A stretch of 64,000 nt of DNA, from the NCBI GenBank assembly GCA_028287305.1, contig JAQBPX010000014.1:124001-188000 (forward strand), read 5' to 3'. A program made the position numbers and the translations under genes. How positions within the stretch are numbered: the first letter of the stretch is position 1; each line of letters begins with the position of its first letter. Source of the stretch: Gemmatimonadota bacterium. Lineage in GTDB: Bacteria; Gemmatimonadota; Gemmatimonadetes; Gemmatimonadales; Gemmatimonadaceae. Below are positions 28,168 to 45,718 of the stretch, piece after piece. The notes beneath the pieces are model-generated. The model was not told the DNA's origin, searched no databases, and saw only the letters and a list, made by a program, of their open reading frames with translations.

Positions 28168-28225
28168 TCACGCAGCGTCTCATTGCTCCCGCTTCTGGCC
28201 CCACTCACTCTCGATCCTCATATTG
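28168..28225 (+). promoter_or_regulatory. Copy 3 of the ACGyAGCGTCTCA element with downstream CATATTG
   Basis: TCACGCAGCGTCTCATT is followed by GCTTCTGGCCCC and, 51 nt from the motif start, CATATTG (28219-28225). The copy at 32948 has the same three blocks at the same distances. CATATTG could be a -10 element. The motif ends 91 nt before the start codon at 28276. Confidence 0.45.
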
Positions 28226-28275
28226 GCCTCGCGAGCTCCGACGGCTTCTGGCGCGTCCCTTTTCTCTCCCTGACA

Positions 28276-28752
28276 ATGACTGCCTCTCCTGAAGTCATCC
28301 GACAGCTCGATGCGATCCAATGGAAGTTCGCGGAATCTGATCTCGCTGCGCGAGCAGATATCGCTGAGCGAATCGCTCGTACGGGTGAGAGAAGCGTTCT
28401 GATCACGTACTCCGATCTAGTCGCTGGAGTGACCTTTCGTCTGCCAACAGTCAGCGGCGGCGACCCATTCCAGATAGACACCCAGGATTGGCGCGACCTT
28501 GACAGAGCGATCCTGGGCGAGTTTCTCGGCCACATTTCTTCCGAGACCTATCGACAGCACGGCTTCTTTGCGAGCGCGCTAGTCGTCGGCAAGGACGATC
28601 GCCGGCCGAGCGGCCCGTTCTTCAAGTGGATACGGGATCTCGGCCTGATTCGTTCGCGGGGTTCCGACGCTGAAGATCGGTTCTGGTGGGACGAGACGAG
28701 CAAAGCGCACACGTTTTATTCACAAGCAGGGACACCTCGCGAGCCGCTCTGA
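28276..28752 (+). CDS. Hypothetical cytosolic protein (ALVVGKDDRRPSGPFF motif)
   Basis: Predicted 158 aa from ATG 28276. The first half is helical (EVIRQLDAIQWKFAESDLAARADIAERIARTG). The second half has FASALVVGKDDRRPSGPFFKWIRDLGLI, a pattern I recall from unnamed proteins near restriction or defence genes (ALVV.K...PG.GFF). An ordinary cytosolic protein with no catalytic signature. It precedes the PD-(D/E)XK-like gene by 61 nt on the same strand, so the two may be co-transcribed. Confidence 0.7.
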   Translation: MTASPEVIRQLDAIQWKFAESDLAARADIAERIARTGERSVLITYSDLVAGVTFRLPTVSGGDPFQIDTQDWRDLDRAILGEFLGHISSETYRQHGFFASALVVGKDDRRPSGPFFKWIRDLGLIRSRGSDAEDRFWWDETSKAHTFYSQAGTPREPL

Positions 28753-28813
28753 GCGCGACTCTACTCGCCAACGTATCAGGTGATACCCAGCACATCAATG
28801 CAACCGAAGGTCA

Positions 28814-29536
28814 ATGAAAAGACTATTCGTTCCAACCCTTGGTCCTTCCGACTGGCGGCGCCTTCTCGCCGATCCCGATAAGCATTGGAAAGCGAACTAC
28901 TCTGCTTACGAGTCAGCCGTGGCCTGGGAGGCCGCTCGCTCCACGCCGCGAGGCTTACCGTACGAGATCGCGCAAGTGCTCGACTCTCATCCTCGCTTCC
29001 GCAACTGTAGCCTCGTGTTTGGGGTTCCAGAGCATCGGGTTGCGCTCGAGGGGGGTGGGCATGCGTCCCAGACAGACTTGTGGGCACTCCTGTCGACGGC
29101 AGCCGGGCTTGTCTCTACCTCGATCGAAGCGAAGGCGGGCGAATCCTTCGACACTACTGTCGAGGAGTGGTTGTCGAAGGCCAAGGTTGGATCGGGAAAG
29201 CCCGATCGTCTTCGAGCACTATGCAAGCTGTGGAACGTGAGCGAAGACAAGATTTCCGGATGTCGCTATCAGCTCATGCACCGACCAGCAACTGCTATCC
29301 TGGAGGCAAAACGTTTCCACGCGAACACAGCGTTGTTCCTCGTCCACGCGTTTGAGCGTATGCCTGAGATAAACCGATCGTCGCACGACGACTATTCGAT
29401 CTGGCGTCGTGCGCTCGGCATTGACGCTTCGCACGCCGGCCTCCAGTGTGCCGGGACGTTTGACGGAATTGAGTTGTGGATGGCGTGGGTTTCCGCGCCG
29501 ACTGCCGACGAAAGAACCGTGCGCGCTGCGGTTTGA
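28814..29536 (+). CDS. Predicted PD-(D/E)XK nuclease-fold protein
   Basis: Predicted 240 aa. The sequence GHASQTDLWALL followed after about 12 residues by TSIEAKAGESFD fits the D...ExK active site of PD-(D/E)XK nucleases: a β-strand Asp, then EAK on the next strand. The flanking order (helix, strand with VFGVPEHRV, helix with EEWLSKAKVG) is also consistent. A long helical C-terminal part includes CRYQLMHRPATAILEAKRF and TALFLVHAFERM. Related proteins are mostly hypothetical and occur in genomic islands. Activity on DNA is inferred. Confidence 0.7.
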   Translation: MKRLFVPTLGPSDWRRLLADPDKHWKANYSAYESAVAWEAARSTPRGLPYEIAQVLDSHPRFRNCSLVFGVPEHRVALEGGGHASQTDLWALLSTAAGLVSTSIEAKAGESFDTTVEEWLSKAKVGSGKPDRLRALCKLWNVSEDKISGCRYQLMHRPATAILEAKRFHANTALFLVHAFERMPEINRSSHDDYSIWRRALGIDASHAGLQCAGTFDGIELWMAWVSAPTADERTVRAAV

Positions 29537-29614
29537 CTTCGGCTGTTACCTCGCAGGATGAACTCCTCAAGAACGGCGTCGAGATCGTGACTCTGCAATC
29601 TGATCCGCGCTAGA

Positions 29615-30307
29615 ATGATGCGCGCAAGTACGTCAATCTGGGCAACGCGCTCTGCATCACTCGCGGCGATTGAATCTTCGCTCGCAGAAGAAGCGCGCCT
29701 CATCGAGGAACTCATCGACGTACTTGCGGAGTGCGCCACCCGATTAGAGAGCGCAAACAATCCGTTGGCTCGCGTGTCGGCTATCTGCACCATAAAGGCC
29801 CGGAATCTTGCGCTCGCGTCCTATAGTCTCGCACTCGACGCGCTGGCGCAGGAGGCTGGTGCCGTGTTTCGACCGCTGATCGAGACGCTGGAATTGCTAG
29901 CCTATCTCCGCGACGATCCTAGTCGAGTCGACGAGGCCATTGAGGGCCGCTTACCGAGCGCTGGAAAAAGAGCACAGGTAATCGGCGGGCAGTTTCAGAA
30001 ATGGCGAGAGTACCTGAATTCGCATTCCTCGCATTTTGGCTTCACTCTCCAGTCGGTTCGCCATCTGCTAGTCGGCAACACTCTCGAGTTACGCGTAACG
30101 CAACCATTCAGCGAGGCGGTCCTTCGCGAAAACCTGAAATCCCTTTTCGCGGTTCTATTCTTTTGTGCGGCGGAGGCCATACTCACGCTGGCTGCTGTGG
30201 TTCCAGGCGCAGCCGTTGACCTCGCGACGCGAGCGGAATCGGTTCGTACTAGCGGCGCGCGCCTTTACAGCATTCGCCCATCCGACTCCGATCCACCGTC
30301 GGGTTAG
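29615..30307 (+). CDS. Hypothetical helical protein
   Basis: Predicted 230 aa, almost all alpha-helical. RVSAICTIKARNLALASYSLALDALAQEAGAVFRPLIETLELLAYLRDD and LKSLFAVLFFCAAEAILTLAAVV are amphipathic or mildly hydrophobic helices. The overall pattern resembles helical cytosolic proteins of unknown role seen in genomic islands. Follows the PD-(D/E)XK-like gene by about 80 nt. No family assigned. Confidence 0.65.
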   Translation: MMRASTSIWATRSASLAAIESSLAEEARLIEELIDVLAECATRLESANNPLARVSAICTIKARNLALASYSLALDALAQEAGAVFRPLIETLELLAYLRDDPSRVDEAIEGRLPSAGKRAQVIGGQFQKWREYLNSHSSHFGFTLQSVRHLLVGNTLELRVTQPFSEAVLRENLKSLFAVLFFCAAEAILTLAAVVPGAAVDLATRAESVRTSGARLYSIRPSDSDPPSG

Positions 30308-30503
30308 TTGAGCTGCCACTAGCGGCCGATCTGATCGTTGTCATTCCCCTTCACGCGATGATCTCCTTCGTTCGGCCGCAGGCTCGGCAATGGCATCAGC
30401 GAACGTCCGCCCCTCCTTCGCGGCCTCGTGATTCGACCTTAGTGGCAGCGTCGCTAGGGTGGCTTGGATGCGAAAGTACGACTAGCAGCTTTATTAGATA
30501 TAC

Positions 30504-30532
30504 TTGCGTTACTGAAGTAACTTCAGTATAGT
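30504..30532 (+). promoter_or_regulatory. Promoter with embedded 19-bp palindromic operator
   Basis: TTGCGT (30504-30509) and TATAGT (30527-30532) are 17 bp apart, a standard sigma-70 layout in an AT-rich stretch. The perfect palindrome TACTGAAGTAACTTCAGTA (30510-30528) fills the whole spacer and touches the -10 box. Binding there would block RNA polymerase. The gene that begins 26 nt downstream encodes a probable DNA-binding protein, so autorepression is likely. Confidence 0.7.
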
Positions 30533-30557
30533 CGGTAATCGCCTTCCGGATTGCCTA

Positions 30558-31040
30558 ATGCCCTCAATAGAGATCGATGCTGACGTATGGGCGGAACTCG
30601 CGCGACGAGCCGAAGATCTACGCCGGCGCAATGGTCCCCTCCAGGACACGAGCCCAAACGCCATTCTGCGTCAGCTACTTTTGGCGGAGAATGAGCAGGA
30701 GCATGCCGTAACCGAGGTGAGTGTTAGGTACGATCCGTGGGGACTTCCCCAGTTTCCAATTGGCACTTCGGCAGCACTCCAGCAGATACTTGAGGTCGCG
30801 TACCTGGCGCGCAACACGCGCAGGTCCAGATCAGAGGCAACTCATGAAGTAGCGCGGCGGCACCGGGTAGCGCCGCAGACAGTTTTGGATAAGTACTGTC
30901 GACAGCTCGGGCTTACTGCAAGTTCGTTTGACCGACTTGTGTCTCAGCCGGACGCAAAGGAGTTGCGGTCGTTACTCCTGAAGCGGTTTCCGGGGGACGC
31001 AGAAACTATTGATCGACTGCTCGATCTGAAGTCTCCCTAA
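30558..31040 (+). CDS. Putative DNA-binding regulator (SeqA-N/ribbon-helix-helix-like)
   Basis: Predicted 160 aa. The N-terminus PSIEIDADVWAELARRAEDL, then TSPNAILRQLLL, follows the strand-helix-helix pattern of SeqA N-terminal and ribbon-helix-helix proteins. The middle contains SEATHEVARRHRVAPQTVLDKYCRQLGLT, which looks like a second, helix-turn-helix-like segment. The protein is small, basic and cytosolic. A palindrome inside its promoter fits autoregulation by a dimer. It is followed 39 nt later by a gene for a tail-anchored protein, and the two may form an operon. Confidence 0.7.
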   Translation: MPSIEIDADVWAELARRAEDLRRRNGPLQDTSPNAILRQLLLAENEQEHAVTEVSVRYDPWGLPQFPIGTSAALQQILEVAYLARNTRRSRSEATHEVARRHRVAPQTVLDKYCRQLGLTASSFDRLVSQPDAKELRSLLLKRFPGDAETIDRLLDLKSP

Positions 31041-31079
31041 TTGCTGGTTAGGAACGTCTCGCTGAGCTGGAGCCGATGA

Positions 31080-32183
31080 ATGGGACGGGGATATCATCGC
31101 CGAAAGTGGGACGGGCGCGATTGGGCACGCTGGCACGACCAGCAGCGGTCGCGCGTGAGTTCGAGGTTTTTTGGCTTGGACGAGGACGTTAAGCGCATCT
31201 TCTTCGAACTAACTCCAGACCAGCTGAACAGAGTCATCCGCTCCTACTCCAACAAGTACGGAGCGTCTGCAGCCTCGTACGCGGCCCGGACCTATCCCCG
31301 CTGGCGAGGCGGAGATGTCAGCCCGAGCGCGGATACCTTGGAGCGACTCTTGGAATCCGTTCCGGAGGTAATACCTCTCCCGCAAAAAGTTCGACTTCTT
31401 GCCGAACTTCGAAAGCGCTCGCGCAAGATTCCCCAGAAACAGATCCGATGCCTGCCGGACACGGCGGAACGGCTCGTCTCGACCGAGCTGACCATCTTGC
31501 TCGCGCAGGGCCTGCGCCACGAAATACCTCCACATGTCCGTGCTGCTCTCGACTGGCTCTCGTGCAACTCGATGAAAACAGCCGAGACCATCCTTCGGGT
31601 AGCTGAGGTGCTCGAGGCACGGGTACTCGCGGAGGCCGCCTCCGTCGAAATCGTGCGCCTCAGACTTGCGCTCGAGCGCACCATCATGATGAAAGGAGCC
31701 TCCGCTGGGCGCTTTTCACATCGAGTCGAGACGCCCTACGCTGTGCTTGACGTCCAGGTAGCTCCGCCTTCACTTCTCGGCAAGTTGATCAAATCCTCCT
31801 CAACCCCTCCTCCCGTGAGCGACCTAACTCCTCGCAATCCCAACGACCTGATCGGCGAGCTCACCAGTCAACTGTCCGAGTCAGACAAGGAGCAGCTTCG
31901 AATTGTTGCCGCTCAGGAGAAGCTCACGCTCGACGTGAAGGCTCGAGAGGCATCGCTGCGCCATGGCGCCTCCGGCGCTGAGATCGAGCGTACCCTCGAC
32001 GCAGCGGAGAGGCTTCAATACGGCGATAAATCGTCCTCCTTCGCGGTCAGCGGAGCCTACAAAGGCGCTAGTGGTGTCACCAATATCGAGGTCAAGCGAA
32101 GCGAACCAGCCGCAGCGATGATAAAGTGGATTGCTGTTGGCGGCGCAATCGTTGGTTTGCTGTATATGTGTGCCAAGAAATAG
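31080..32183 (+). CDS. Hypothetical protein with C-terminal membrane anchor
   Basis: Predicted 367 aa. A charged, helical cytosolic body (FFGLDEDVKRIFFELTPDQLNRVI, SPSADTLERLLESVP, EIPPHVRAALDWLSCNSMKTAETILRVAEVLEARVLAEAAS) leads to a Glu/Lys-rich probable coiled coil (about residues 255-310). One hydrophobic segment lies at the extreme C-terminus (AMIKWIAVGGAIVGLLYMC), giving a tail-anchored protein facing the cytosol. No family recognised. Same strand and only 39 nt after the putative regulator. Confidence 0.65.
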   Translation: MGRGYHRRKWDGRDWARWHDQQRSRVSSRFFGLDEDVKRIFFELTPDQLNRVIRSYSNKYGASAASYAARTYPRWRGGDVSPSADTLERLLESVPEVIPLPQKVRLLAELRKRSRKIPQKQIRCLPDTAERLVSTELTILLAQGLRHEIPPHVRAALDWLSCNSMKTAETILRVAEVLEARVLAEAASVEIVRLRLALERTIMMKGASAGRFSHRVETPYAVLDVQVAPPSLLGKLIKSSSTPPPVSDLTPRNPNDLIGELTSQLSESDKEQLRIVAAQEKLTLDVKAREASLRHGASGAEIERTLDAAERLQYGDKSSSFAVSGAYKGASGVTNIEVKRSEPAAAMIKWIAVGGAIVGLLYMCAKK

Positions 32184-32306
32184 CGCACCCCGCCAGGAGC
32201 TCTTCACCCCTCGCCAGATCACGCTAAGAATTCCCCGGAGAGTTGCATCAGCCCCGGAGTCGACATCACTCGGGGCGCCGGTATCACGCGGCGAACGAGC
32301 ATCGAG

Positions 32307-32831
32307 TTGTTGAGGTTGAAAAGGATTGTCGCCTTTCACCGAGGTCCAAATGCGAGTTCGAAGGATCAGCTTGGCCTTTGGCTTGCTCTATTCGCAGGAG
32401 CAGTTGGATCCGGCTGCTCGCAGAGCACGTGGCAAACTATTGGGGCCATTGCTACGGCGGCCTCCCAGGCTTCGGCGGCACAAGGAGGCACCAGCGCATT
32501 CGCTCCTGGAACTGAGCTGCTGATCTTCGGCGGTCAGGATCACAAGACTTTTCTTGGTTGCCTTAACTGCTCGGCTTCGAGCACTTCCTCCGTTCTTAAT
32601 CAATACTCGCAATACGGCTCCTCCTATTCGGCATCAAGCATTTTCAACAAGTACGGCATTTTCGGATCAGCGTATTCCAACTACGGGGTGTGTTCGACCT
32701 ACGCCACCGATCCTCCGGTGATCGTAAATCGAGCTGGAGGCTACTTCGGGCGCCTTACGCTTAATACCTCCCTTTCCGATGCCGTGCGAGATGACCGCGT
32801 GCATGCGTGGCTACTCGGAGTCTGTCACTGA
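32307..32831 (+). CDS. Predicted lipoprotein with YGS-repeat domain
   Basis: Predicted 174 aa from a TTG start (uncertain). A hydrophobic segment ending in LFAGAVGSGCSQS suggests a lipoprotein signal. The mature half carries SSVLNQYSQYGSSYSASSIFN, then KYGIFGSAYSNYGVC, DPPVIV and GGYFGRLTLN. This is the same module as the C-terminus of the BIG-domain lipoprotein at 26567. Such tandem Y-G-S/N-rich segments with a closing PP..V and G.Y.G.LT.N occur in surface proteins of several phyla. Function unknown. Confidence 0.65.
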   Translation: MLRLKRIVAFHRGPNASSKDQLGLWLALFAGAVGSGCSQSTWQTIGAIATAASQASAAQGGTSAFAPGTELLIFGGQDHKTFLGCLNCSASSTSSVLNQYSQYGSSYSASSIFNKYGIFGSAYSNYGVCSTYATDPPVIVNRAGGYFGRLTLNTSLSDAVRDDRVHAWLLGVCH

Positions 32832-32947: not shown

Positions 32948-33006
32948 TCACGCAGCGTCTCACAATTCTTGCTTCTGGCCCCCACGCCCTCCCGCACTTC
33001 ATATTG
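32948..33006 (+). promoter_or_regulatory. Copy 4 of the ACGyAGCGTCTCA element with downstream CATATTG
   Basis: TCACGCAGCGTCTCACA, then GCTTCTGGCCCCC and CATATTG (33000-33006), 52 nt from the motif start. The motif ends 91 nt before the TTG start of the HD-GYP gene at 33056, the same spacing as copy 3. Together they suggest a shared promoter architecture. Confidence 0.5.
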
Positions 33007-35163: not shown

Positions 35164-37362
35164 ATGACCAGCAATTCGAAGAAGTACTATTTTCGCGTCG
35201 ATGCTCGCACAATTTTGCAGCTGGGGCGCCAGAGCATTAAGGATCACATCACCGCGCTAATTGAGCTGGTAAAGAACGCCTATGATGCCGATGCTGGTAG
35301 AGTCGAGATCGACCTGCAGTCGCGTAAGGGCGTTCTGCGTGTCACGGACGACGGTAGCGGCATGGATGAGGACACTTTTCACAAGACCTGGCTGCGGATT
35401 GGCTACTCAGCGAAACGACGCGCAACCAAAAGCCCTAGCGGCCGTCGACGTGTCGTAGGTGAGAAGGGCGTCGGCAGAATATCTGCCGACCGACTTGGCG
35501 GGGAGCTTGAGCTTCGAACTCTCGCTCGCGGAAAGACTCCCTTCTCCGCGGTGGTCTCATGGGATGCGTTTGACGTCGACGACCGGGACCTCGGACAAGT
35601 TCCTGTGCTACTTCGGCAGGGCGTGACGCCAGATCTGCCGAAAAAGGAAGAAGCAGTCTCCTCCGATCGACCTAGTGGCACAGAGCTTATCGTACGGAAC
35701 CTTCGCCAAGCATGGCACGCATCCGACATTGAGAATCTCGTTCAGGAACTCGAGACTCTTGTTTCGCCCTTTGATCAGGACGGGGACTTTGCTGTCTGGC
35801 TAAAGACAGACATTGCACAAGCATTCGAAGGGGAAATACAATCGAGTCTCCCTGAGCAGGCAGAGCTAGAGCTACGTGCTAAACTTTTTAGAAACGTCAT
35901 CACCTACGAGCTGATTGACCGAGCTCCAGGGAGAGCCAAGCCCCTTCGGCGTAGCGGTAAGTTGAAATGGGCTGACGTCGGCACGGGGCCAGATTCCGGT
36001 AGGCAGGGCACCAGAACGCGAAGCGCACGCACCGGCCCGGTAGAGCTTCGCCTATACTACTTTCCCCAGCGCTTCTTTCGCGAGCACGCCTCTGTGCTTA
36101 AAGCATCGGAATTGCGTGACCGCACGGTCGGCATTCGCATCTATCGAGACAAGGTGCGCGTCCGACCCTATGGCGACTCGCGGGACGCTGCCGGAGATTG
36201 GCTGTCTCTTGCTGCGCGAAAAGCAAGAGAGCCGGCGGGCGTGTCAAGAACCGCTTACCGCATTCCGCCTACCGAACTCGCGGGCGCAGTATTTATCGGT
36301 CGCGACAGAAACCGCAAGCTTTACGACAGCGCTGGTCGCGAAGGATTAGTTCATAACGAGGCCTTTGCCGACCTTCGCGCACTGGTTCTACGCTGCCTGC
36401 GAATCATGGAAGGACACAGACACAAGGTTCACACTGATCGTGCGCCCGTGCGTGATGTGATTCCAGCGCTTCAGGCAGTGGAGTCCTTCTCTACCCGGCT
36501 CGGTTCCATCGAGAAGGAGTGGCGAACCATTCAGGCGGAAGCAATCACAAATCCGCGCCGCGCGCTCGACCGAGCAGGGGAGATCATTCTCTCTTCAATC
36601 GACACGGTAAAATCGACGCGCGAATCCGTATCAGCATTGGTAGACCAAACGAGGCTGTTCCGGGGCTTGTCGAGCCTCGGCATCGCGGCATCCGTGTTCG
36701 GCCACGAGACGCAGGTGCTTATTTCACTCTGTCTTGGCAATCTCGCTGAAGCGGGTGACGAGCTTCGAAGCGCTCAACCCGATCTAAAGCTGGCGTGTGC
36801 CGCAATTGATGAGGCGCTTGTCAACGCCCGCAAAGTCTCCGCGTGGGGAGCGTTCGCCGTCGCAAGAGTTAAACCGGATAAGAGACGGCCGAAGCTGCTG
36901 CGAATCGACACGCTTGTCCAAAAGCTAGCCGAAGAACTTCGTCCAGCCTACACCGCAATCCGAACTCCTCTAGAGGTCAACGTAGAGCCTGTCGAGCTGA
37001 AGGCCCATGCGATGGATATTGAGGCAATCGCCCTAAACCTCTTGACCAACGCCTACTCCTTTTCTCAGGAAGGAAAACGCCGCGGTGTTCGCGTCACCGT
37101 CAAATATGATTCGCGAGACGGAAGGAAGGGGGCGGTGATTGTGGTAGCTGACTCAGGACCTGGCGTTGCTGCCGAGGCGCGCGAAGTAGTGTGGGAGCCC
37201 TTGTACACGACAAAACGGGACGCGGCTGGCAACGAGTCCGGCACGGGCCTCGGCTTGTCAATCATCGATTCCATCGTCCAAGATAGAAAAGGGAGCCGCT
37301 CGCTTGATTCCGACCCCGATCTCAAGGGTGCTCGCTTCACGATCTGGCTGCCGATTTCCTAA
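35164..37362 (+). CDS. Dual-GHKL-ATPase histidine kinase of a four-gene operon
   Basis: Predicted 732 aa. The N-terminal 200 residues are a MORC/Hsp90/MutL-like GHKL ATPase: ALIELVKNAYDAD (Glu34, Asn38), TDDGSGMD (62-68) and GEKGVGR (99-105). A middle region of about 300 residues is unassigned. An H-box-like ASVFGHETQ carries His514, and a second GHKL domain of histidine-kinase type follows: NLLTNAYSFS (Asn629), DSGPGV (663-668) and GTGLGLS (693-699). There is no signal peptide, membrane helix or other sensor domain, so it is cytosolic and the N-terminal ATPase may be the sensor. Its stop overlaps the next ATG by one base. Likely partner: the receiver protein that follows. Confidence 0.85.
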   Translation: MTSNSKKYYFRVDARTILQLGRQSIKDHITALIELVKNAYDADAGRVEIDLQSRKGVLRVTDDGSGMDEDTFHKTWLRIGYSAKRRATKSPSGRRRVVGEKGVGRISADRLGGELELRTLARGKTPFSAVVSWDAFDVDDRDLGQVPVLLRQGVTPDLPKKEEAVSSDRPSGTELIVRNLRQAWHASDIENLVQELETLVSPFDQDGDFAVWLKTDIAQAFEGEIQSSLPEQAELELRAKLFRNVITYELIDRAPGRAKPLRRSGKLKWADVGTGPDSGRQGTRTRSARTGPVELRLYYFPQRFFREHASVLKASELRDRTVGIRIYRDKVRVRPYGDSRDAAGDWLSLAARKAREPAGVSRTAYRIPPTELAGAVFIGRDRNRKLYDSAGREGLVHNEAFADLRALVLRCLRIMEGHRHKVHTDRAPVRDVIPALQAVESFSTRLGSIEKEWRTIQAEAITNPRRALDRAGEIILSSIDTVKSTRESVSALVDQTRLFRGLSSLGIAASVFGHETQVLISLCLGNLAEAGDELRSAQPDLKLACAAIDEALVNARKVSAWGAFAVARVKPDKRRPKLLRIDTLVQKLAEELRPAYTAIRTPLEVNVEPVELKAHAMDIEAIALNLLTNAYSFSQEGKRRGVRVTVKYDSRDGRKGAVIVVADSGPGVAAEAREVVWEPLYTTKRDAAGNESGTGLGLSIIDSIVQDRKGSRSLDSDPDLKGARFTIWLPIS

Positions 37363-38063
37363 TGAGCACACTCGCTGTGGTCGACGACCGCCCTGAGGTG
37401 CGGGATCTAGTGGGGAGGAGGCTTACACGTGCGCTCAAGGACGAGGGCGTTTTCGATCAGTGGGAGTTAGTACTCTCTCCACCGCTGGCGACCCTCTCTC
37501 TATATCCGGGATGGGTCGCGGAGCAGGAGGTGTCTGTCCTTTTGCTAGATCAGCGATTGAATGAGGCGGCAGATCTCGAGCCTCCTTATACCGGTCACGA
37601 TATTCTGAACCTGCTGAGACCGAGGGAGTTCGACCTCCCAATCTATTACGTCACCGAGATTCCCAACGATGCACTCCTGGAGGCCGATAGCCCTCGCGTG
37701 AGTGGGATTCTCTCTAGAAGCAAGCTCACAGCAACGCTGGAGGATACTCGCTTCTTCGTGCGTGAATTTATTCGAGAAGGACAGCGCTACGATGCGCGAG
37801 TCGCCCGTAAGCTGGCCCGGCTTTCGCAGATCGCATCGCTCATCGTTGCAGGAACTGCCAACGAGGAGGAGCTGAAGGAAGCGGCAGCCATTCGGGAGGA
37901 GTTTCAATTGCCGTTTGCCAGCTCAGACGCGCAAATCGACCGCGCACAGTCAGCGCGATTTGATCTGCTGAATGTGTTCGAAGAAGAAATCAGCTCCCTA
38001 GAATCACTCGCAACAGAGTTGCGTGGCTTGATCGCGGAGTCCGCGCCGGAGGAGGAGGAGTAG
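37362..38063 (+). CDS. Stand-alone receiver-domain protein
   Basis: Predicted 233 aa. Residues 1-125 are a receiver domain with all key positions intact: Asp8/Asp9 (VVDDRPEV), Asp63 as phospho-acceptor (LLLDQRLN), Thr98 (YYVTE) and Lys121 (SRSKL). The remaining 110 residues are helical and acidic, ending in four Glu. They contain no DNA-binding or enzymatic output domain. It may signal by protein contact, for instance with the HNH or methyltransferase proteins. It overlaps the kinase gene by 1 nt and is 2 nt before the HNH gene, so tight coupling is expected. Confidence 0.85.
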   Translation: MSTLAVVDDRPEVRDLVGRRLTRALKDEGVFDQWELVLSPPLATLSLYPGWVAEQEVSVLLLDQRLNEAADLEPPYTGHDILNLLRPREFDLPIYYVTEIPNDALLEADSPRVSGILSRSKLTATLEDTRFFVREFIREGQRYDARVARKLARLSQIASLIVAGTANEEELKEAAAIREEFQLPFASSDAQIDRAQSARFDLLNVFEEEISSLESLATELRGLIAESAPEEEE

Positions 38064-38065
38064 GG

Positions 38066-38692
38066 ATGCAATGGTTCCTCGTTCCGAAGGTTCCTCCCGA
38101 GCAAGTACGGGCTGGCTCATACAAGGATTGGAAGCCCGAGCTAGCCGTGGAAGGAAGGGAACAATGCGTGTACTGCGCGATTCCCGATCGAAGAATGGGT
38201 GGACTGTACGTATTTCACGTCGAGCATTTCGTTCCGAAGTCGAGGGACTCAAACCTTACGAACGAGTGGGGCAATCTCTTCTACTCTTGCCCTATCTGCA
38301 ATGTGTTTAAGGGCGCGGACTGGCCCGAGCCGGGCTCACCCATATCATATGTTGATCCGAGCAAGGTCGACTACAGCACCATTCTGTTAGTCCAACAGGA
38401 TGCGAGCGTGATCGGGCTAACCACGAATGCTCGGTACATGATCGAGCGCCTAAACCTTAATCGTGCACAGCTTCGCCTCGAACGACGCGACGCTTTCCTT
38501 TGGATACGGTACCATGAGGCAGCACGCGCCATCGACGCAATGAGACCGAAGCTCAGACTATTGCCGGCACAGGATCGTAGCAACATCGTCGACCGAGTCC
38601 TTGAGATATCCGGTCGAGTACGAGAGGCGTCCGAGCGCGTGCGTACTTCCAGTCTTTATGGCCCTGGCGATACGAGAAGGGCGGCGCGATGA
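38066..38692 (+). CDS. HNH endonuclease of the four-gene operon
   Basis: Predicted 208 aa. An HNH module with zinc knuckles occupies residues 34-82: CVYC (34/37), FHVEHFVPKS (His51, His54), the Asn of NEWGNLF (70) and SCPICNVFKG (75/78). This is the HVEHF/CN..KG subtype seen in restriction enzymes and Septu-like effectors. The C-terminal 110 residues are helical (TTNARYMIERLNLNRAQLRLERRDAFL). Placed between the receiver and the DNA methyltransferase genes, it is the likely DNA-cutting component. It starts 2 nt after the receiver stop. Confidence 0.9.
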   Translation: MQWFLVPKVPPEQVRAGSYKDWKPELAVEGREQCVYCAIPDRRMGGLYVFHVEHFVPKSRDSNLTNEWGNLFYSCPICNVFKGADWPEPGSPISYVDPSKVDYSTILLVQQDASVIGLTTNARYMIERLNLNRAQLRLERRDAFLWIRYHEAARAIDAMRPKLRLLPAQDRSNIVDRVLEISGRVREASERVRTSSLYGPGDTRRAAR

Positions 38693-38735
38693 TCTCGATC
38701 AGGTATTCTAATCCCGTCATGAGGCGTTCTCGTAG

Positions 38736-40007
38736 ATGAATTTTGGCACAGCTGCCATAGCGATGGAGCGCCTAGCGAGTAACGGGCTGCGCGGAAACCT
38801 CGGCTCCAGCTTTATCGACAGTAATGCCGCAGAACTCGCGTCACTATTCCGGCGAACAGTGTCCTTGTCGGAGAGGCGCGCCTCTGGTGCGTTCTTCACG
38901 GCTCCTGGTCTCGCCGCCCAAATGGCTCGAGGGGTTCCGAGTACCGCCACGGTGTGCGATCCGACCTGCGGAATTGGAGACCTGCTATTGTCTCATGTTC
39001 GACGCTTGCCCGTGGAGCGTTCGCTCGATGAGACACTAGACGAGTGGGGCGAACGAATCTCTGGGTTCGAATTGCACGGGCATCTACTGAGAGTCGCACG
39101 AGCAAGGATCGCATTGGCGGCGATCGCCCGGTTCGAACGTCTCCGCAAGAAGCCCGGCCGATCGACAAGACTCTTAAAGGAGCTTTTCCCATCCTTAATT
39201 GTGGGCGATGGACGTGATTCCGGCCCGGCCATTCGCAACGCGACTCATGTTTGGCTCAATCCGCCGTACAACAGAGTACAAGCTCCGCCTGAATGCACTT
39301 GGAGTTCCGGGCTGGTGTCGCAGGCAGCGTTATTTGTCGAATCCACTTTGCTGCACTCTCGAGCCGGCACTTCCCTAACAGCCATTCTCCCGGATGTGCT
39401 CCGATCTGGTTCGCGATATCAACGCTGGAGAATGCGGATCGAGGAACTCGCTAGGGTGCAATCCGTAGAGATTGCTGGGCTATTCGATCAGCACACTCAC
39501 GTCGACGTTTTCGTTCTTCGAGCAACTCGGCTTGCTGTTTTGAAGCGCGAGCCAGGGGCGGGCATGTGGACGGCCGTGGTTTCCAATGCGACCGTTGGCT
39601 CTCTCGTGCAGATATCCGTCGGGCCAGTTGTGCCCTATCGCGAGCCGAATCTCGGGCCATGGAGACCATATGTCGATGTGAAATCGTGCCCGCGGGACGG
39701 AGTTCTCTTGGACTCATTGGCCTCACGACGCTTCCGGGGGCGTGTCTTTGAGCCCCCGCTAGTTCTAATTCGTCGCACATCTAGTCCCCATGACAAGCAT
39801 CGCATCGTATCGACACTTGTAACCGACTCCAGGTCTCTTGCGGTGGAGAACCACTTGCTCGTACTCGAACCTTATGACGGAACGGTCGCCACCTGCATGG
39901 CGGTACTCGACGTACTTCGATCAGAACGGACGAATACATGGCTGAACGAGAGAATTCGCTGTCGGCATCTCACGGTGGAAGCTGTGAGGGATATTCCTCT
40001 TCGCTAG
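38736..40007 (+). CDS. N6-adenine DNA methyltransferase
   Basis: Predicted 423 aa. GAFFTAPGLAAQM (51-63, motif X-like), CDPTCGIGDLLL (motif I, 74-84), FELH (111-114, motif II) and WLNPPYNR (NPPY at 175-178, motif IV) define an amino-methyltransferase of the gamma/Eco57I-like group. Residues after about 270 are probably target-recognition sequence and end in NTWLNERIRCRHLTVEAVRDIPL, as in many type I/IIG modification subunits. No helicase or REase domain is fused. It is 43 nt after the HNH gene on the same strand and should protect host DNA. Confidence 0.9.
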   Translation: MNFGTAAIAMERLASNGLRGNLGSSFIDSNAAELASLFRRTVSLSERRASGAFFTAPGLAAQMARGVPSTATVCDPTCGIGDLLLSHVRRLPVERSLDETLDEWGERISGFELHGHLLRVARARIALAAIARFERLRKKPGRSTRLLKELFPSLIVGDGRDSGPAIRNATHVWLNPPYNRVQAPPECTWSSGLVSQAALFVESTLLHSRAGTSLTAILPDVLRSGSRYQRWRMRIEELARVQSVEIAGLFDQHTHVDVFVLRATRLAVLKREPGAGMWTAVVSNATVGSLVQISVGPVVPYREPNLGPWRPYVDVKSCPRDGVLLDSLASRRFRGRVFEPPLVLIRRTSSPHDKHRIVSTLVTDSRSLAVENHLLVLEPYDGTVATCMAVLDVLRSERTNTWLNERIRCRHLTVEAVRDIPLR

Positions 40008-40157
40008 GATGTGATCGCATCATTGTCAGAAGGGCTCAAGCTTCAGCGAACAGAGCGCAGCATGATCACACCAATACGGTTCACTCGTACTTGCGGCGCA
40101 CGAACAGGCGGAGCAGCATAAGGTAAGATTCTTGTCCTAGACTCTTACCGCACCCGC

Positions 40158-40496
40158 ATGTCCCGCCTCCCCATCCTCAAAGGCACCCTCGACGTCCTCG
40201 TCCTCAAGTCCCTCACCTAGGGTCCCATGCACGGGTTCGAGATCACCACCTGGCTCGAGGAGCAGACTCGCGAGGGGCTCGACATCGAGGACGCGGGCCT
40301 CTACCAGGCGCTCCGCCGCCTCAAGGAGCGCGGCTTCCTCGAGGCTGAGCTCGGGCTCACCCAGAACAACCGCCGCGCGCGATACTACAAGCTCACCACC
40401 ACCGGCCGCGCGCATCTGCGCGCCGAGACCACGCGCTTCACGCGATACGCCGAGATGGTCCTCGCGGTGCTGGCCACGCCGGCCGCGCGCGCCTGA
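40158..40496 (+). pseudogene. PadR-family regulator pseudogene (internal stop)
   Basis: Nearly identical to the intact PadR gene at 42717. A TAG at 40218-40220 stands where the intact copy has TGG (Trp, in LTWGPMHGFE). The rest of the frame (EITTWLEEQTREGLDIED through LATPAARA) is preserved, which suggests recent inactivation. An ATG at 40227 could still give an 89-aa fragment lacking the first helix. Confidence 0.85.
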
Positions 40497-40672
40497 ATGC
40501 TTCGCCCCGGCAGCCGCCGACTCTTCGGCCTCGACCTCCCGCACACCGACCGCATCGCGGCCGAGCTCCACGACGAAATGGAGCTCCACCTCACCGTCAC
40601 GCTGGCCTGAGGCATCGGCGCCAACACAGCGCTGTTCAGGGTGTTGAACAACCGGATCACCGATGCACTCCC
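40497..40672 (+). pseudogene. ADOP-type permease remnant
   Basis: It begins exactly as the intact permease at 43055 (MLRPG..RLFGLDLP.TDRIAAELHDEMELHL). It then jumps to TVTLA-stop and GIGANTALFRVLNN, which in the intact gene come about 90 residues later. The internal deletion, an in-frame TGA and loss of everything downstream leave only a scar of the gene. It is directly preceded by the PadR pseudogene in the same order as the intact pair. Confidence 0.8.
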
Positions 40673-42501: not shown

Positions 42502-42716
42502 GATGCCTCCAAGTGTGCATGTATCGGGTGGGGCCTCCGGCAATATTCGAAACGGCCATGGACGCCACAACCCCATGACCGGGGGACGCGAGCGGTTCTT
42601 CCCGTTCCCTTACACGAGCGTTCGACGCCGGTCATTGACACTCGCCGGCCACGCCCTAGCTTCGGGATAGACACTTAGTGTAGACTCTCAGGCTAGTCTC
42701 CCAATCCTGCCGCTCC

Positions 42717-43055
42717 ATGCCTCCCCTGACGATCCTCAAGGGCACCCTCGACGTCCTCGTCCTCAAGACCCTCACCTGGGGTCCCATGCACGGGTTCGAG
42801 ATCACCACCTGGCTCGAGGAGCAGACCCGCGAGGGGCTCGACATCGAGGACGCGGCCCTCTACCAGGCACTCCGGCGCCTGGAGGAGCGCGGCTTCCTCG
42901 AGGCTGAGCTCGGGCTCACCGAGAACAACCGCCGCGCGCGGTACTACAAGCTCACCACCACCGGCCGCGCGCACCTGCGCGCCGAGACCACGCGCTTCAC
43001 CCGCTACGCCGAGATGGTCCTCGCGGTGCTGGCCACGCCGGCCGCCCGCGCCTGA
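42717..43055 (+). CDS. PadR-family transcriptional regulator (ADOP partner)
   Basis: Predicted 112 aa. Typical PadR winged helix: LTILKGTLDVLVLKTLTWGPMHGFEI, DIEDAALYQALRRLEERGFLEAELG, ARYYKLTTTGRAHL. The length is standard. The last base of its stop is the first base of the permease start (43055). PadR proteins so placed are thought to control the adjacent permease gene. It is nearly identical to the pseudogene at 40158, where a Trp codon has become a stop. Confidence 0.95.
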   Translation: MPPLTILKGTLDVLVLKTLTWGPMHGFEITTWLEEQTREGLDIEDAALYQALRRLEERGFLEAELGLTENNRRARYYKLTTTGRAHLRAETTRFTRYAEMVLAVLATPAARA

Positions 43056-45718
43056 TGCTCCGCCCCGGCATCCGCCGACTCTTCGGCCTCGACCTCCCGC
43101 GCACCGACCGCATCGCCGCCGAGCTCCACGACGAGATGGAGCTCCACCTCGAGCTCCGTACGCAGCAGCTCATCGCACGTGGGCTCTCCCCTGCCGCGGC
43201 ACGCGCGCAGGCGCGCAGGCTATTTGGTGACAGCTCCGATGCCATTCGAGACATCGCCCAGCACGCCCGTCGCCGCGAGCGCACGATCAAGCGACGATTC
43301 ACGCTCGACTCCCTGGCGCAGGACGTCCGCTTCGCGCTCCGCACGCTCGGCCGCCAGAAGGCATGGACGGCCGTCGCCATCGTCACGCTCGCACTCGGCA
43401 TCGGCGCGAACACGGCCGTGTTCAGCGTGGTGAACGACCTGATCCTCGACCCGCTCCGCTACCCGCACGCCGACCGCCTCATCCTGCTGTCGCGCGCCAT
43501 CCCGGCGTCCGGCGTCACGGTCTCGCCCTCCGTCGAGTTGCTCGACGCATGGCGCGGCGCCCGCTCGCTCGAGGGGATCGAGGGCTACGCCAACAACGAC
43601 CTCACGCTGGCCGCGGGCGGCGACCCGCGCATCGTCCATGCGACGTCTGCGTCGCGCACCTTCCCGGCTTTCTCCGGCGCGCACCTGGTCACGGGGCGCT
43701 GGTTCAACGCTGATGAGGAACGCGCCGGCGCCGCACCGGTCGCGGTGCTCGGCGAACGCCTCTGGCGCGCGCAGTTCAACGGCGACGCATCGGTGCTCGG
43801 CCGCAGCATCACGATCGAGGGCAAGCCGACCACGGTGATCGGCGTGATGCAGGACGGCGTCCGCATGCCCTCCTGGGGCTCCGACCCCACCGACCTCTGG
43901 GTGCCCTTCACCCCCGCCGTGAAGTTCCTCGGCGGCCCCGCCGTCGCGCGGCTGCGCGCCGGCATGAGCGTGACGCAGGCGCAGCAGGAGCTCGCCTCCA
44001 TCGCCACGCGACTCGACGGCCCCGCGAACCCGGCGCGGCACTCGATGGTCTTCACGATCGCCGTCGCGCGACCCGGAATAGGGGCCGAGACCAGGCAGTC
44101 GGTGTTCATGCTCGCGGGGGCGGTGTGCCTGCTGCTGCTGATCGCCTGCGCGAACGTCGCGCACCTGCTGCTCGCCCGCGGCGCCACGCGCGAGCGCGAG
44201 CTGGCCGTGCGCGCCGCGCTCGGCGCCGGACGCGGGCGCATCATGCGCCAGCTGGTGACCGAGAGCATGATGCTCGCGCTCGCGGGGTGCGTCGCGGGTC
44301 TGCTGGTGGGCGTGGCGAGTCTGAGGGTTATCGTTGCCATGCGACCGCCGAACATGAGCACGCTCGCGAACGTCCACATCGACGCGCGCGTGTTGCTCGC
44401 GACAATGTGCGTCTCGCTCCTCACGGGGCTCGCGTTCGGGCTGGTGGCCGCGCTGCAGGGCAAGGGCGATCGCACCTTCTCGATCCTCCGCAGCTCGGTG
44501 GGCGGCAGCGAGGGCGCGGGACATCATCGCCTGCGCTCGCTGCTGGTGGTCACGGAGAGCGCGATGAGCGTGGTGCTGCTCGTGGGCGCCACGCTGCTCA
44601 TCCGCACGGTGATCAACCTGCGCGACATCGACCCGGGCTTCGACGCAAGGAACGTCTACGCGATGCCAGTGACGTTGCCGGAGGGGCGCTATCCGAGCGA
44701 GGCGTCGCGCGTCCAGTACGGTTCGCAGCTGCTCGAGCAGGCGAAGCGGATACCGGGCGTAAGCCAGGCTACCATCGCTTCGAGCGTGCCCACGAAGAGC
44801 GGACTGATGATCGCCGAGTGGATGGCCGATGGCGAGCAGTTGCCCGCGGCTGCGAAGGGCAACGGGTTCACGGCCATGAACCGGGTGCGCCCTGACTACT
44901 TCGCACTGATGCGCATGCCCCTCGTGGCGGGCCGAGGCTTCGATGCGGGATCGAGCCAGCGGAATGAGGTGGTGATCAGCCGCTCGCTGGCCAAGCAGCT
45001 GTTCAGGAATGCGCAGGCGGTGGGGCGAGGGTTCAGGGCGCGCGATGCGGGGCCGAGCCCGAGCGGGCCGCCGAAGTGGATGATCGTGTCGGGAGTGGTG
45101 GAAGACGCAAGCCTCTTCTCGCTCAGCGACCTGCGCAACAGCGCAGTGGTGTACTTCCCCGAGGAGCCCACGAAGTCGAGCGACTTCACGCTGGTGCTCA
45201 AGATGCGCGACGGTGCGCCACCGCTGACCGCGGCGCTGCGGAAGGTGTCGCTGGCGCTCGACCCGGCGATGTCGCCGCCGGCAGTGCTCAAGCTCACGGA
45301 GGAGCTGATGGGCACGATCGCGCAGCAACGCTTCATCATGACGCTGCTGACGTTGTTCGCGGTGCTGGCAGTGGTGCTCTCGGCGGTGGGTCTGTACGGC
45401 GTGATCGCCTACATGGTGAGCCGCAGCACGCGCGAGATCGGGATTCGCGTGGCGCTAGGCGCCGCGCGGCGGGATGTGGCGAGGCTGGTCACGCGCCAGG
45501 GGCTGATGCTGTCGGGGATCGGGCTGGCCATCGGACTGCTGGCGTCGCTCTGGGGAACGGCGCTGCTCAAGAAGGACCTGTACGGAGTGACGGCTACGGA
45601 TCCGTTGTCTTACGTGGTGGGGGCCATGGTGTTGCTGGTGCTGGCGGCGGCGGCTTGTGTGGCGCCCACGGTGAGGGCGTTGAGGATCGATCCGATGACG
45701 GCGATGCGGAGTGAGTAA
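43055..45718 (+). CDS. ADOP-type ABC permease (MacB/FtsX-like)
   Basis: Predicted 887 aa. A short N-terminal cytoplasmic part (LDLPRTDRIAAELHDEMELHLELR) precedes the first helix, with the family hallmark VTLALGIGANTAVFSVVNDLIL. A MacB periplasmic core domain, three helices around residue 350 (FMLAGAVCLLLLIACANVAHLLLA) and a second such core follow. The C-terminal FtsX block is clear (TLFAVLAVVLSAVGLYGVIAYMV, RDVARLVTRQGL). No ATPase is encoded alongside, as usual for acidobacterial-type duplicated orphan permeases. Substrate unknown. Translationally coupled to PadR. Confidence 0.95.
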   Translation: MLRPGIRRLFGLDLPRTDRIAAELHDEMELHLELRTQQLIARGLSPAAARAQARRLFGDSSDAIRDIAQHARRRERTIKRRFTLDSLAQDVRFALRTLGRQKAWTAVAIVTLALGIGANTAVFSVVNDLILDPLRYPHADRLILLSRAIPASGVTVSPSVELLDAWRGARSLEGIEGYANNDLTLAAGGDPRIVHATSASRTFPAFSGAHLVTGRWFNADEERAGAAPVAVLGERLWRAQFNGDASVLGRSITIEGKPTTVIGVMQDGVRMPSWGSDPTDLWVPFTPAVKFLGGPAVARLRAGMSVTQAQQELASIATRLDGPANPARHSMVFTIAVARPGIGAETRQSVFMLAGAVCLLLLIACANVAHLLLARGATRERELAVRAALGAGRGRIMRQLVTESMMLALAGCVAGLLVGVASLRVIVAMRPPNMSTLANVHIDARVLLATMCVSLLTGLAFGLVAALQGKGDRTFSILRSSVGGSEGAGHHRLRSLLVVTESAMSVVLLVGATLLIRTVINLRDIDPGFDARNVYAMPVTLPEGRYPSEASRVQYGSQLLEQAKRIPGVSQATIASSVPTKSGLMIAEWMADGEQLPAAAKGNGFTAMNRVRPDYFALMRMPLVAGRGFDAGSSQRNEVVISRSLAKQLFRNAQAVGRGFRARDAGPSPSGPPKWMIVSGVVEDASLFSLSDLRNSAVVYFPEEPTKSSDFTLVLKMRDGAPPLTAALRKVSLALDPAMSPPAVLKLTEELMGTIAQQRFIMTLLTLFAVLAVVLSAVGLYGVIAYMVSRSTREIGIRVALGAARRDVARLVTRQGLMLSGIGLAIGLLASLWGTALLKKDLYGVTATDPLSYVVGAMVLLVLAAAACVAPTVRALRIDPMTAMRSE

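Follow-up and report, generated by a model that had tools for sequence, protein, structure and literature searches.

The window, by which we mean the whole stretch of 64,000 nucleotides of a Gemmatimonadota bacterium that was analysed, contains a four-gene operon (positions 35164-40007) encoding, in this order, a kinase, a receiver, an HNH nuclease and an adenine methyltransferase, which on balance is probably a horizontally acquired defence cassette of the restriction-modification (R-M) type in which a His-Asp relay inside the cell governs the nuclease. The kinase and receiver genes overlap by 1 nt, the HNH gene starts 2 nt past the receiver gene, and the methyltransferase gene lies 43 nt past the HNH gene. 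The GC3 of the four genes is 0.58-0.63 versus 0.87-0.90 for the genes on either side, and the receiver was found in only 1 of 395 sampled genomes of the window's own phylum, namely the window's own. Because of these two observations, we conclude that the cassette was acquired horizontally from outside. The window holds no tRNA, and therefore no tRNA attachment site. PADLOC 2.0.0 contains no model for the whole kinase or for the receiver.

Some features of the surroundings can be recorded as well. At positions 40157-40592 and 42716-43150 a PadR-like regulator, together with the beginning of an ABC-permease gene, is partly duplicated (93-95%); the first of these copies, which directly adjoins the cassette's end, contains a stop codon and is shortened. 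A second stretch of low GC3 (0.58-0.67, versus 0.87 in the next gene) extends over 28183-32830 and holds a DUF6946 protein (28814-29536) and further unannotated genes; a direct repeat of 35 nt (83%), with its copies at 28168-28202 and 32948-32982, brackets it, and the proteins flanking it both end in a similar Tyr/Gly/Ser-rich region. This stretch is possibly another inserted island.

The first gene (35164-37362, forward strand) encodes a protein of 732 aa that we describe as a soluble histidine kinase of the paraMORC type on the basis of Pfam matches, motifs invariant in 61 relatives, an AlphaFold model, and fold matches to MORC3 and to histidine kinases. Its predicted layout comprises a MORC-like GHKL+S5 ATPase cassette (residues 18-423), a helical linker, a DHp region with H514 and a catalytic ATPase (577-731). 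A genome scan found two HATPase_c copies within this single frame, and the Pfam matches, to HATPase_c_3 at residues 30-135 (E 1.2e-18) and to HATPase_c at residues 617-731 (E 1.9e-26), are both far over the cut-off. In an alignment of 61 relatives, which share 22-41% identity with the window kinase, the invariant residues include motifs of the gyrase/MutL type at the first site (E34, N38, D62, G64, G66 and the loop G99/K101/G102/G104), motifs of the kinase type at the second (N625, N629, G665 and the loop G693/G695/G697), and H514, the predicted phospho-acceptor; as judged from the alignment, this degree of invariance is far above chance expectation. The structure models are of single chains, with input alignments that excluded plasmid-derived rows, and that of the kinase (mean pLDDT 83.6) shows a GHKL and S5-type domain, then a helical linker leading to a DHp hairpin that bears H514, and a catalytic ATPase. 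Its C-terminal half resembles the DHp-CA regions of CpxA and HK853 in Foldseek, which also returned MutL, Hsp90-family and DNA-bound MORC2 structures. With VIA-align, residues 18-423 align with the ATPase-CW cassette of mouse MORC3 (Z 19.6, rmsd 4.9, 293 residues) and residues 574-732 with histidine-kinase catalytic domains (Z about 20-22), while MutL, present among the Foldseek matches, was absent among the best 50 VIA-align matches.

Taken from motifs and model together, the kinase appears to carry two intact GHKL ATP sites. An earlier sequence-only reading of this DNA had placed the first two open reading frames at 35164-37362 and 37362-38063, and had proposed for the kinase two GHKL ATPase folds with an H-box-like His514 between them and no membrane segment, all of which is borne out; the maximum 19-residue Kyte-Doolittle value is 1.28, and no hydrophobic segment scores as a membrane span. 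The N-terminal ATP pocket, one of the points on which that reading had staked its proposal, is present, with the pocket residues invariant in the relatives and the MORC3 alignment described above. An N-terminal GHKL domain with intact motifs followed by an S5 domain, as seen in the HATPase_c_3 match and the MORC3 alignment, is what characterizes the ATPases of the paraMORC/MORC group. Within this group, the S5 motif of MORC proper, GhXhhpXXRhl, is not matched by GIRIYRDKVRV (residues 323-333), and because the Arg stands one position late, the kinase is classed on its sequence as a paraMORC rather than as a MORC proper.

The receiver protein (37362-38063, forward strand; 233 aa) comprises a REC domain at residues 1-119 (D8, D9, D63, T98, R119) and a class-specific helical tail at 126-227, assignments that come from the alignment, the structure model, REC fold matches and a tail HMM. 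In the alignment of 62 sequences D8 is conserved in 60, position 9 is Asp or Glu, D63 is found in all 62, and T98 in 59 with Ser in the remainder. The match of the window receiver to PF00072 is marginal (E 0.08), and 24 of the 62 relatives match it at 0.01; the model (pLDDT 90.3) and its fold matches correspond to a REC domain. With H514, N625, N629, G693, G695 and G697 in the kinase and D8, D9 and D63 in the receiver, the pair has the residues by which two-component systems are recognized. The sequence-only reading had correctly pointed to Asp8/9, Asp63 and Thr98, but its Lys121 shows no conservation; beta-5 is followed by a basic residue at position 119, which is Lys in 46 of the 62 sequences and Arg in 12, the window protein having Arg in place of the canonical Lys.

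That reading had also described the receiver as lacking any output domain and ending in an acidic helical tail. The tail is helical in the model, with three helices (126-163, 168-181 and 189-227), but its acidity is not conserved, since the net charge is -11 in the window and ranges from -11 to +15 in the family, with a median of -3. Nor does the absence of an output region hold. In a held-out test on all ORFs of about 160 loci, an HMM of the tail found 63 of the 65 receivers of the HNH class and no other ORF, unlike an HMM of the REC domain, which also matches receivers from other classes. Since the tail HMM finds the HNH-class receivers alone and the REC HMM does not discriminate, the tail appears to be a conserved, class-specific region, confined to receivers whose genes adjoin that of this HNH nuclease. 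No recognizable DNA-binding domain was found in the receiver, its Foldseek matches being limited to the REC part and to common helices.

The third gene (38066-38692, forward strand) encodes an HNH nuclease of 208 aa of the PtuB / TIGR02646 (retron-associated) type (Pfam HNH 1e-7, PADLOC PtuB 6e-20), with CVYC at 34-37, H54 and CPIC at 75-78. Among 32 relatives C34, H54, N70, C75, N79 and K82 are invariant. The fourth gene (38736-40007, forward strand) encodes an adenine-N6-type DNA methyltransferase of 423 aa, identified by its motifs I (DPTCGIG, 75) and IV (NPPY, 175) and a PADLOC match to MTase_II (1e-10). The same methyltransferase family adjoins the cassette elsewhere, for example in the closest relative, L032. 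An endonuclease gene linked in this way to a DNA methyltransferase gene is the arrangement of type II-like R-M systems. As a separate observation, in four HNH relatives (L041, L055, L064 and L111) both CxxC pairs have jointly lost their second Cys, which suggests the loss of a structural zinc.

About 160 loci were collected from scans of genome contigs, viral contigs and plasmids; in the viral contigs a single kinase sequence as query gave no match and the alignment as query did. The loci were picked by kinase similarity, so that the class frequencies given below are not a census. Kinase, receiver and HNH genes are found in that order at 65 loci in many phyla, including Bacteroidota, Elusimicrobiota, Planctomycetota, Pseudomonadota and Bacillota, with median gaps of +2 nt between kinase and receiver and -4 nt between receiver and HNH. 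An N6-methyltransferase, from one of two families and located upstream or downstream, adjoins 58 of the 59 such loci unaffected by a contig edge. In the kinase tree all 64 HNH-class kinases group together in a single set of 67 rows with an SH-like support of 98, and the other three rows (L054, L060 and L097) are truncated by a contig end or an assembly gap. Among the clustered relatives, the HNH gene comes after the kinase and receiver genes or, if the receiver is interrupted by an assembly gap, after the kinase gene. Selection by the other components rendered the same association: the four new Bacteroidota genomes picked by the receiver only (sample of 395) all keep kinase, receiver, HNH and methyltransferase, and the four plasmid loci picked by the HNH only all have it behind a kinase and a receiver. 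A relative's receiver gene had no close DNA match in E. coli genomes and one partial match in annotated phages. The kinase copy of a Klebsiella variicola plasmid (L008:4971-7241) is frameshifted, either by decay or by sequencing error.

The flanks of these loci carry type I and type II R-M, AbiE and SoFic genes, and 96 flanking proteins gave matches to 76 PADLOC families, versus a single family for 96 control proteins, where one methyltransferase can match many models and the family counts thus exceed the protein counts. The cassette loci sit in defence islands.

In a sister class the order is methyltransferase, kinase, receiver and a metallo-beta-lactamase (MBL)-fold protein, for example at L009, L124, L127 and L128. 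Seven loci with an MBL-fold protein in the position of the HNH were found (L009:4998-8777, L014, L051, L093, L124, L127 and L128), usually with the same methyltransferase family, although two of the seven are without an adjacent N6-methyltransferase. The receiver tail of this class is unrelated to that of the HNH class and apparently rich in strands. Because the methyltransferase families c3 and c8 exchange under one type of receiver tail, and c8 is found with both HNH-class and MBL-class tails, the tail appears to follow the class of nuclease and not the methyltransferase family, which suggests that it could be an effector adaptor. Of the two partners that the sequence-only reading had offered for the tail, the nuclease is thus the one that we would keep; binding to the methyltransferase is disfavoured, as its family changes freely under a single tail. 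Correlations of evolutionary distance are high among all modules (0.74-0.90), as expected from co-inheritance of the cassette. With columns equalised, distance co-evolution singled out no tail-HNH link and identified no contact, and a link between the kinase N-terminus and the HNH (mirror-distance partial r 0.43) was set aside, since most of the difference was gone after equal-column subsampling. At L123, L126, L140-L143, L148, L158 and viral loci like these there are further kinase classes, whose receiver-like proteins, 340-540 aa long, have other C-terminal regions without Pfam matches; these are possibly more effector types.

We propose that the MORC-type N-terminal cassette would bind ATP and DNA and close as a dimeric clamp, its target being either incoming DNA without the methylation of the partner enzyme or a structure of phage replication or repair. 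The first ATPase, cast as a detector by the sequence-only reading, would thereby occupy the position of the sensor. Clamp closure would re-pack the DHp helices, allowing the C-terminal ATPase to phosphorylate His514, from which the phosphoryl group would pass to Asp63 of the receiver; phosphorylation would then shift the helical tail so that the HNH nuclease is recruited or released, with self DNA marked by the methyltransferase. The relay would be in this way a licensing step, by which a generic nuclease is held inactive as long as no non-self DNA has been detected. In this full form, with a His-Asp phosphorelay switching a restriction nuclease, a MORC clamp-kinase reading non-self DNA and the receiver tail as an adaptor exchangeable between HNH and MBL effectors, the proposal is plausible rather than probable. 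The Arg119 of the window receiver, in place of the commonest Lys, counts against a relay. In the literature available to us we found no report of phosphotransfer, DNA binding, cleavage or phage protection for this cassette family, and to our knowledge there is no R-M system with a two-component relay acting directly on the nuclease. If the proposal is true, DNA immunity has taken up signalling components for a licensing step, the sensor is an ATPase of the type that gave rise to the MORC proteins of eukaryotes, and the receiver tail is a module that sets which nuclease gets armed. Our results suggest that some bacteria may switch a restriction enzyme on by means of phosphorylation.

Chief among the alternatives is that the same relay controls an effector of abortive infection, which we regard as rather unlikely. 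A phage event would trigger the relay, and the HNH would then destroy host DNA or RNA, like the effectors of retrons and Septu; DNA ends, a phage protein, or the loss or inhibition of the methyltransferase could be the trigger, in which case the methyltransferase would be a guarded self-marker and not one half of a classic R-M system. Since PtuB and the retron effectors, to which the HNH is related, do not necessarily cleave DNA, its target could be either RNA or the DNA of the host. Abortive infection is favoured by the closeness of the HNH to PtuB and to the retron-associated TIGR02646 family, by its size of about 200 aa with no matched DNA target-recognition domain, and by its replacement with an MBL-fold protein in the sister loci. 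On the other hand, the retention of an N6-methyltransferase beside nearly all uncut HNH loci, if not beside every MBL locus, fits a discrimination between self and non-self DNA. The reading that we prefer is R-M with a relay that licenses the nuclease.

The usual output of two-component relays is transcription, and the pair could act on the methyltransferase or the operon as an ordinary two-component system, regulating its expression or its activity, with no direct gating of the nuclease. The general precedent of two-component control and the speculation on signalling control of R-M systems (PMC8011034) speak for such regulation, yet it is improbable, as the receiver offers Foldseek nothing like a DNA-binding domain and its tail tracks the nuclease class instead of the methyltransferase family. 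Finally, it could be that the kinase fold is an ATP-driven conformational machine, in which the C-terminal GHKL domain and His514 are structural (dimerisation, ATP sensing) and the receiver is a phosphorylation-independent adaptor. For this there is a precedent, since MORC and MutL act by clamp closure without phosphotransfer, and the change of the receiver Lys to Arg in 12 of 62 sequences, that of the window included, points the same way, but the invariance of His514 in 61 sequences and of Asp63 in 62, with the N and G boxes intact, is what phosphotransfer predicts and makes this reading very doubtful.

Several known systems share parts of the cassette. VcSduA is a Shedu nuclease with an N-terminal GHKL ATPase, in which the substitution E27A of the ATPase Glu abolishes defence (PMC12137116); its ATPase is proposed as a gate of the nuclease in phage defence, and by analogy it may be a precedent for the gating considered here, although it is a single protein with a PD-(D/E)xK nuclease for which no kinase core, receiver or methyltransferase is described. 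The restriction enzymes of the BbrUII/HgiDII type (NF050001) have a similar N-terminal GHKL region, matched by kinase residues 8-196 (E 7e-23), but the match is limited to positions 1-183 of the 659 of the profile and scores 81 versus a cut-off of 550. The HNH effectors of retron Ec78 (PtuB) and Septu belong to the same broad family as the window HNH, but they are partnered by the PtuA ATPase or a retron instead of a kinase, a receiver and a methyltransferase; no PtuA was found among the four proteins of the window, which have only the HNH in common with those systems. HATPase and REC are also among the domain labels of the predicted systems highlighted in the part of the DefensePredictor work available to us (PMC13092281).

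The closest likenesses mean that the logic is less new than the sequence-only reading had implied, since the architecture and its link to R-M were published in 2008 and 2021 (PMC2292703, PMC8011034). Bellieny-Rabelo et al. (2021) reported kinases with the layout HATPase_c_3 + HEF_HK + HATPase_c, gene-linked to Response_reg_2 receivers in the vicinity of R-M genes, and put forward signalling control of R-M systems as a speculation (PMC8011034). Like those of HEF_HK (PF19191) and Response_reg_2 (PF19192), the window pair is a soluble kinase with HATPase_c_3, H-box and HATPase_c in an R-M context, encoded beside a REC-like protein for which no output domain is known. The neighbourhoods of the 2021 pairs contain mainly C5-cytosine methyltransferases and Vsr, with HNH domains in some (PMC8011034), whereas the window family has a PtuB-type HNH, an N6-methyltransferase and a receiver tail of its own. 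PF19191 did not match the window kinase at E 1 or any of its 61 relatives at 0.01, and neither did PF19192 match the window receiver or its 62 relatives at the same thresholds; PF19191 weakly matches a sister-class kinase (L061, E 5.6e-4), and a search with it of the window's own genome gave no match, as did its control. Because neither Pfam model matches, the family is not a member of these systems by definition, and it appears to be a sister branch with the same logic. If a relay licenses the nuclease here, the HEF_HK/Response_reg_2 pairs could likewise be direct effector switches.

The paraMORC ATPases were defined, in R-M operons, by Iyer, Abhiman and Aravind (2008), of whose work the part available to us describes paraMORC1 as having a GHKL+S5 module whose motifs are intact, followed by a C-terminal extension that is conserved, and as sharing its operon in some cases with HNH endonucleases and methylases (PMC2292703). 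The window kinase is alike in all of these: the module, the motifs, the extension and the operon partners. The terms "receiver" and "two-component system" have no occurrence in the text of that paper, and no description of the extension as a histidine-kinase core was found in the part available (PMC2292703). The paraMORC1 members are possibly the same proteins as the window kinase family. With paraMORC plus HNH (PMC2292703) and the HEF_HK/Response_reg_2 pairs (PMC8011034) as its precedents, the cassette would be, as far as its sequences indicate, a distinct HNH branch of a kind that had been predicted.
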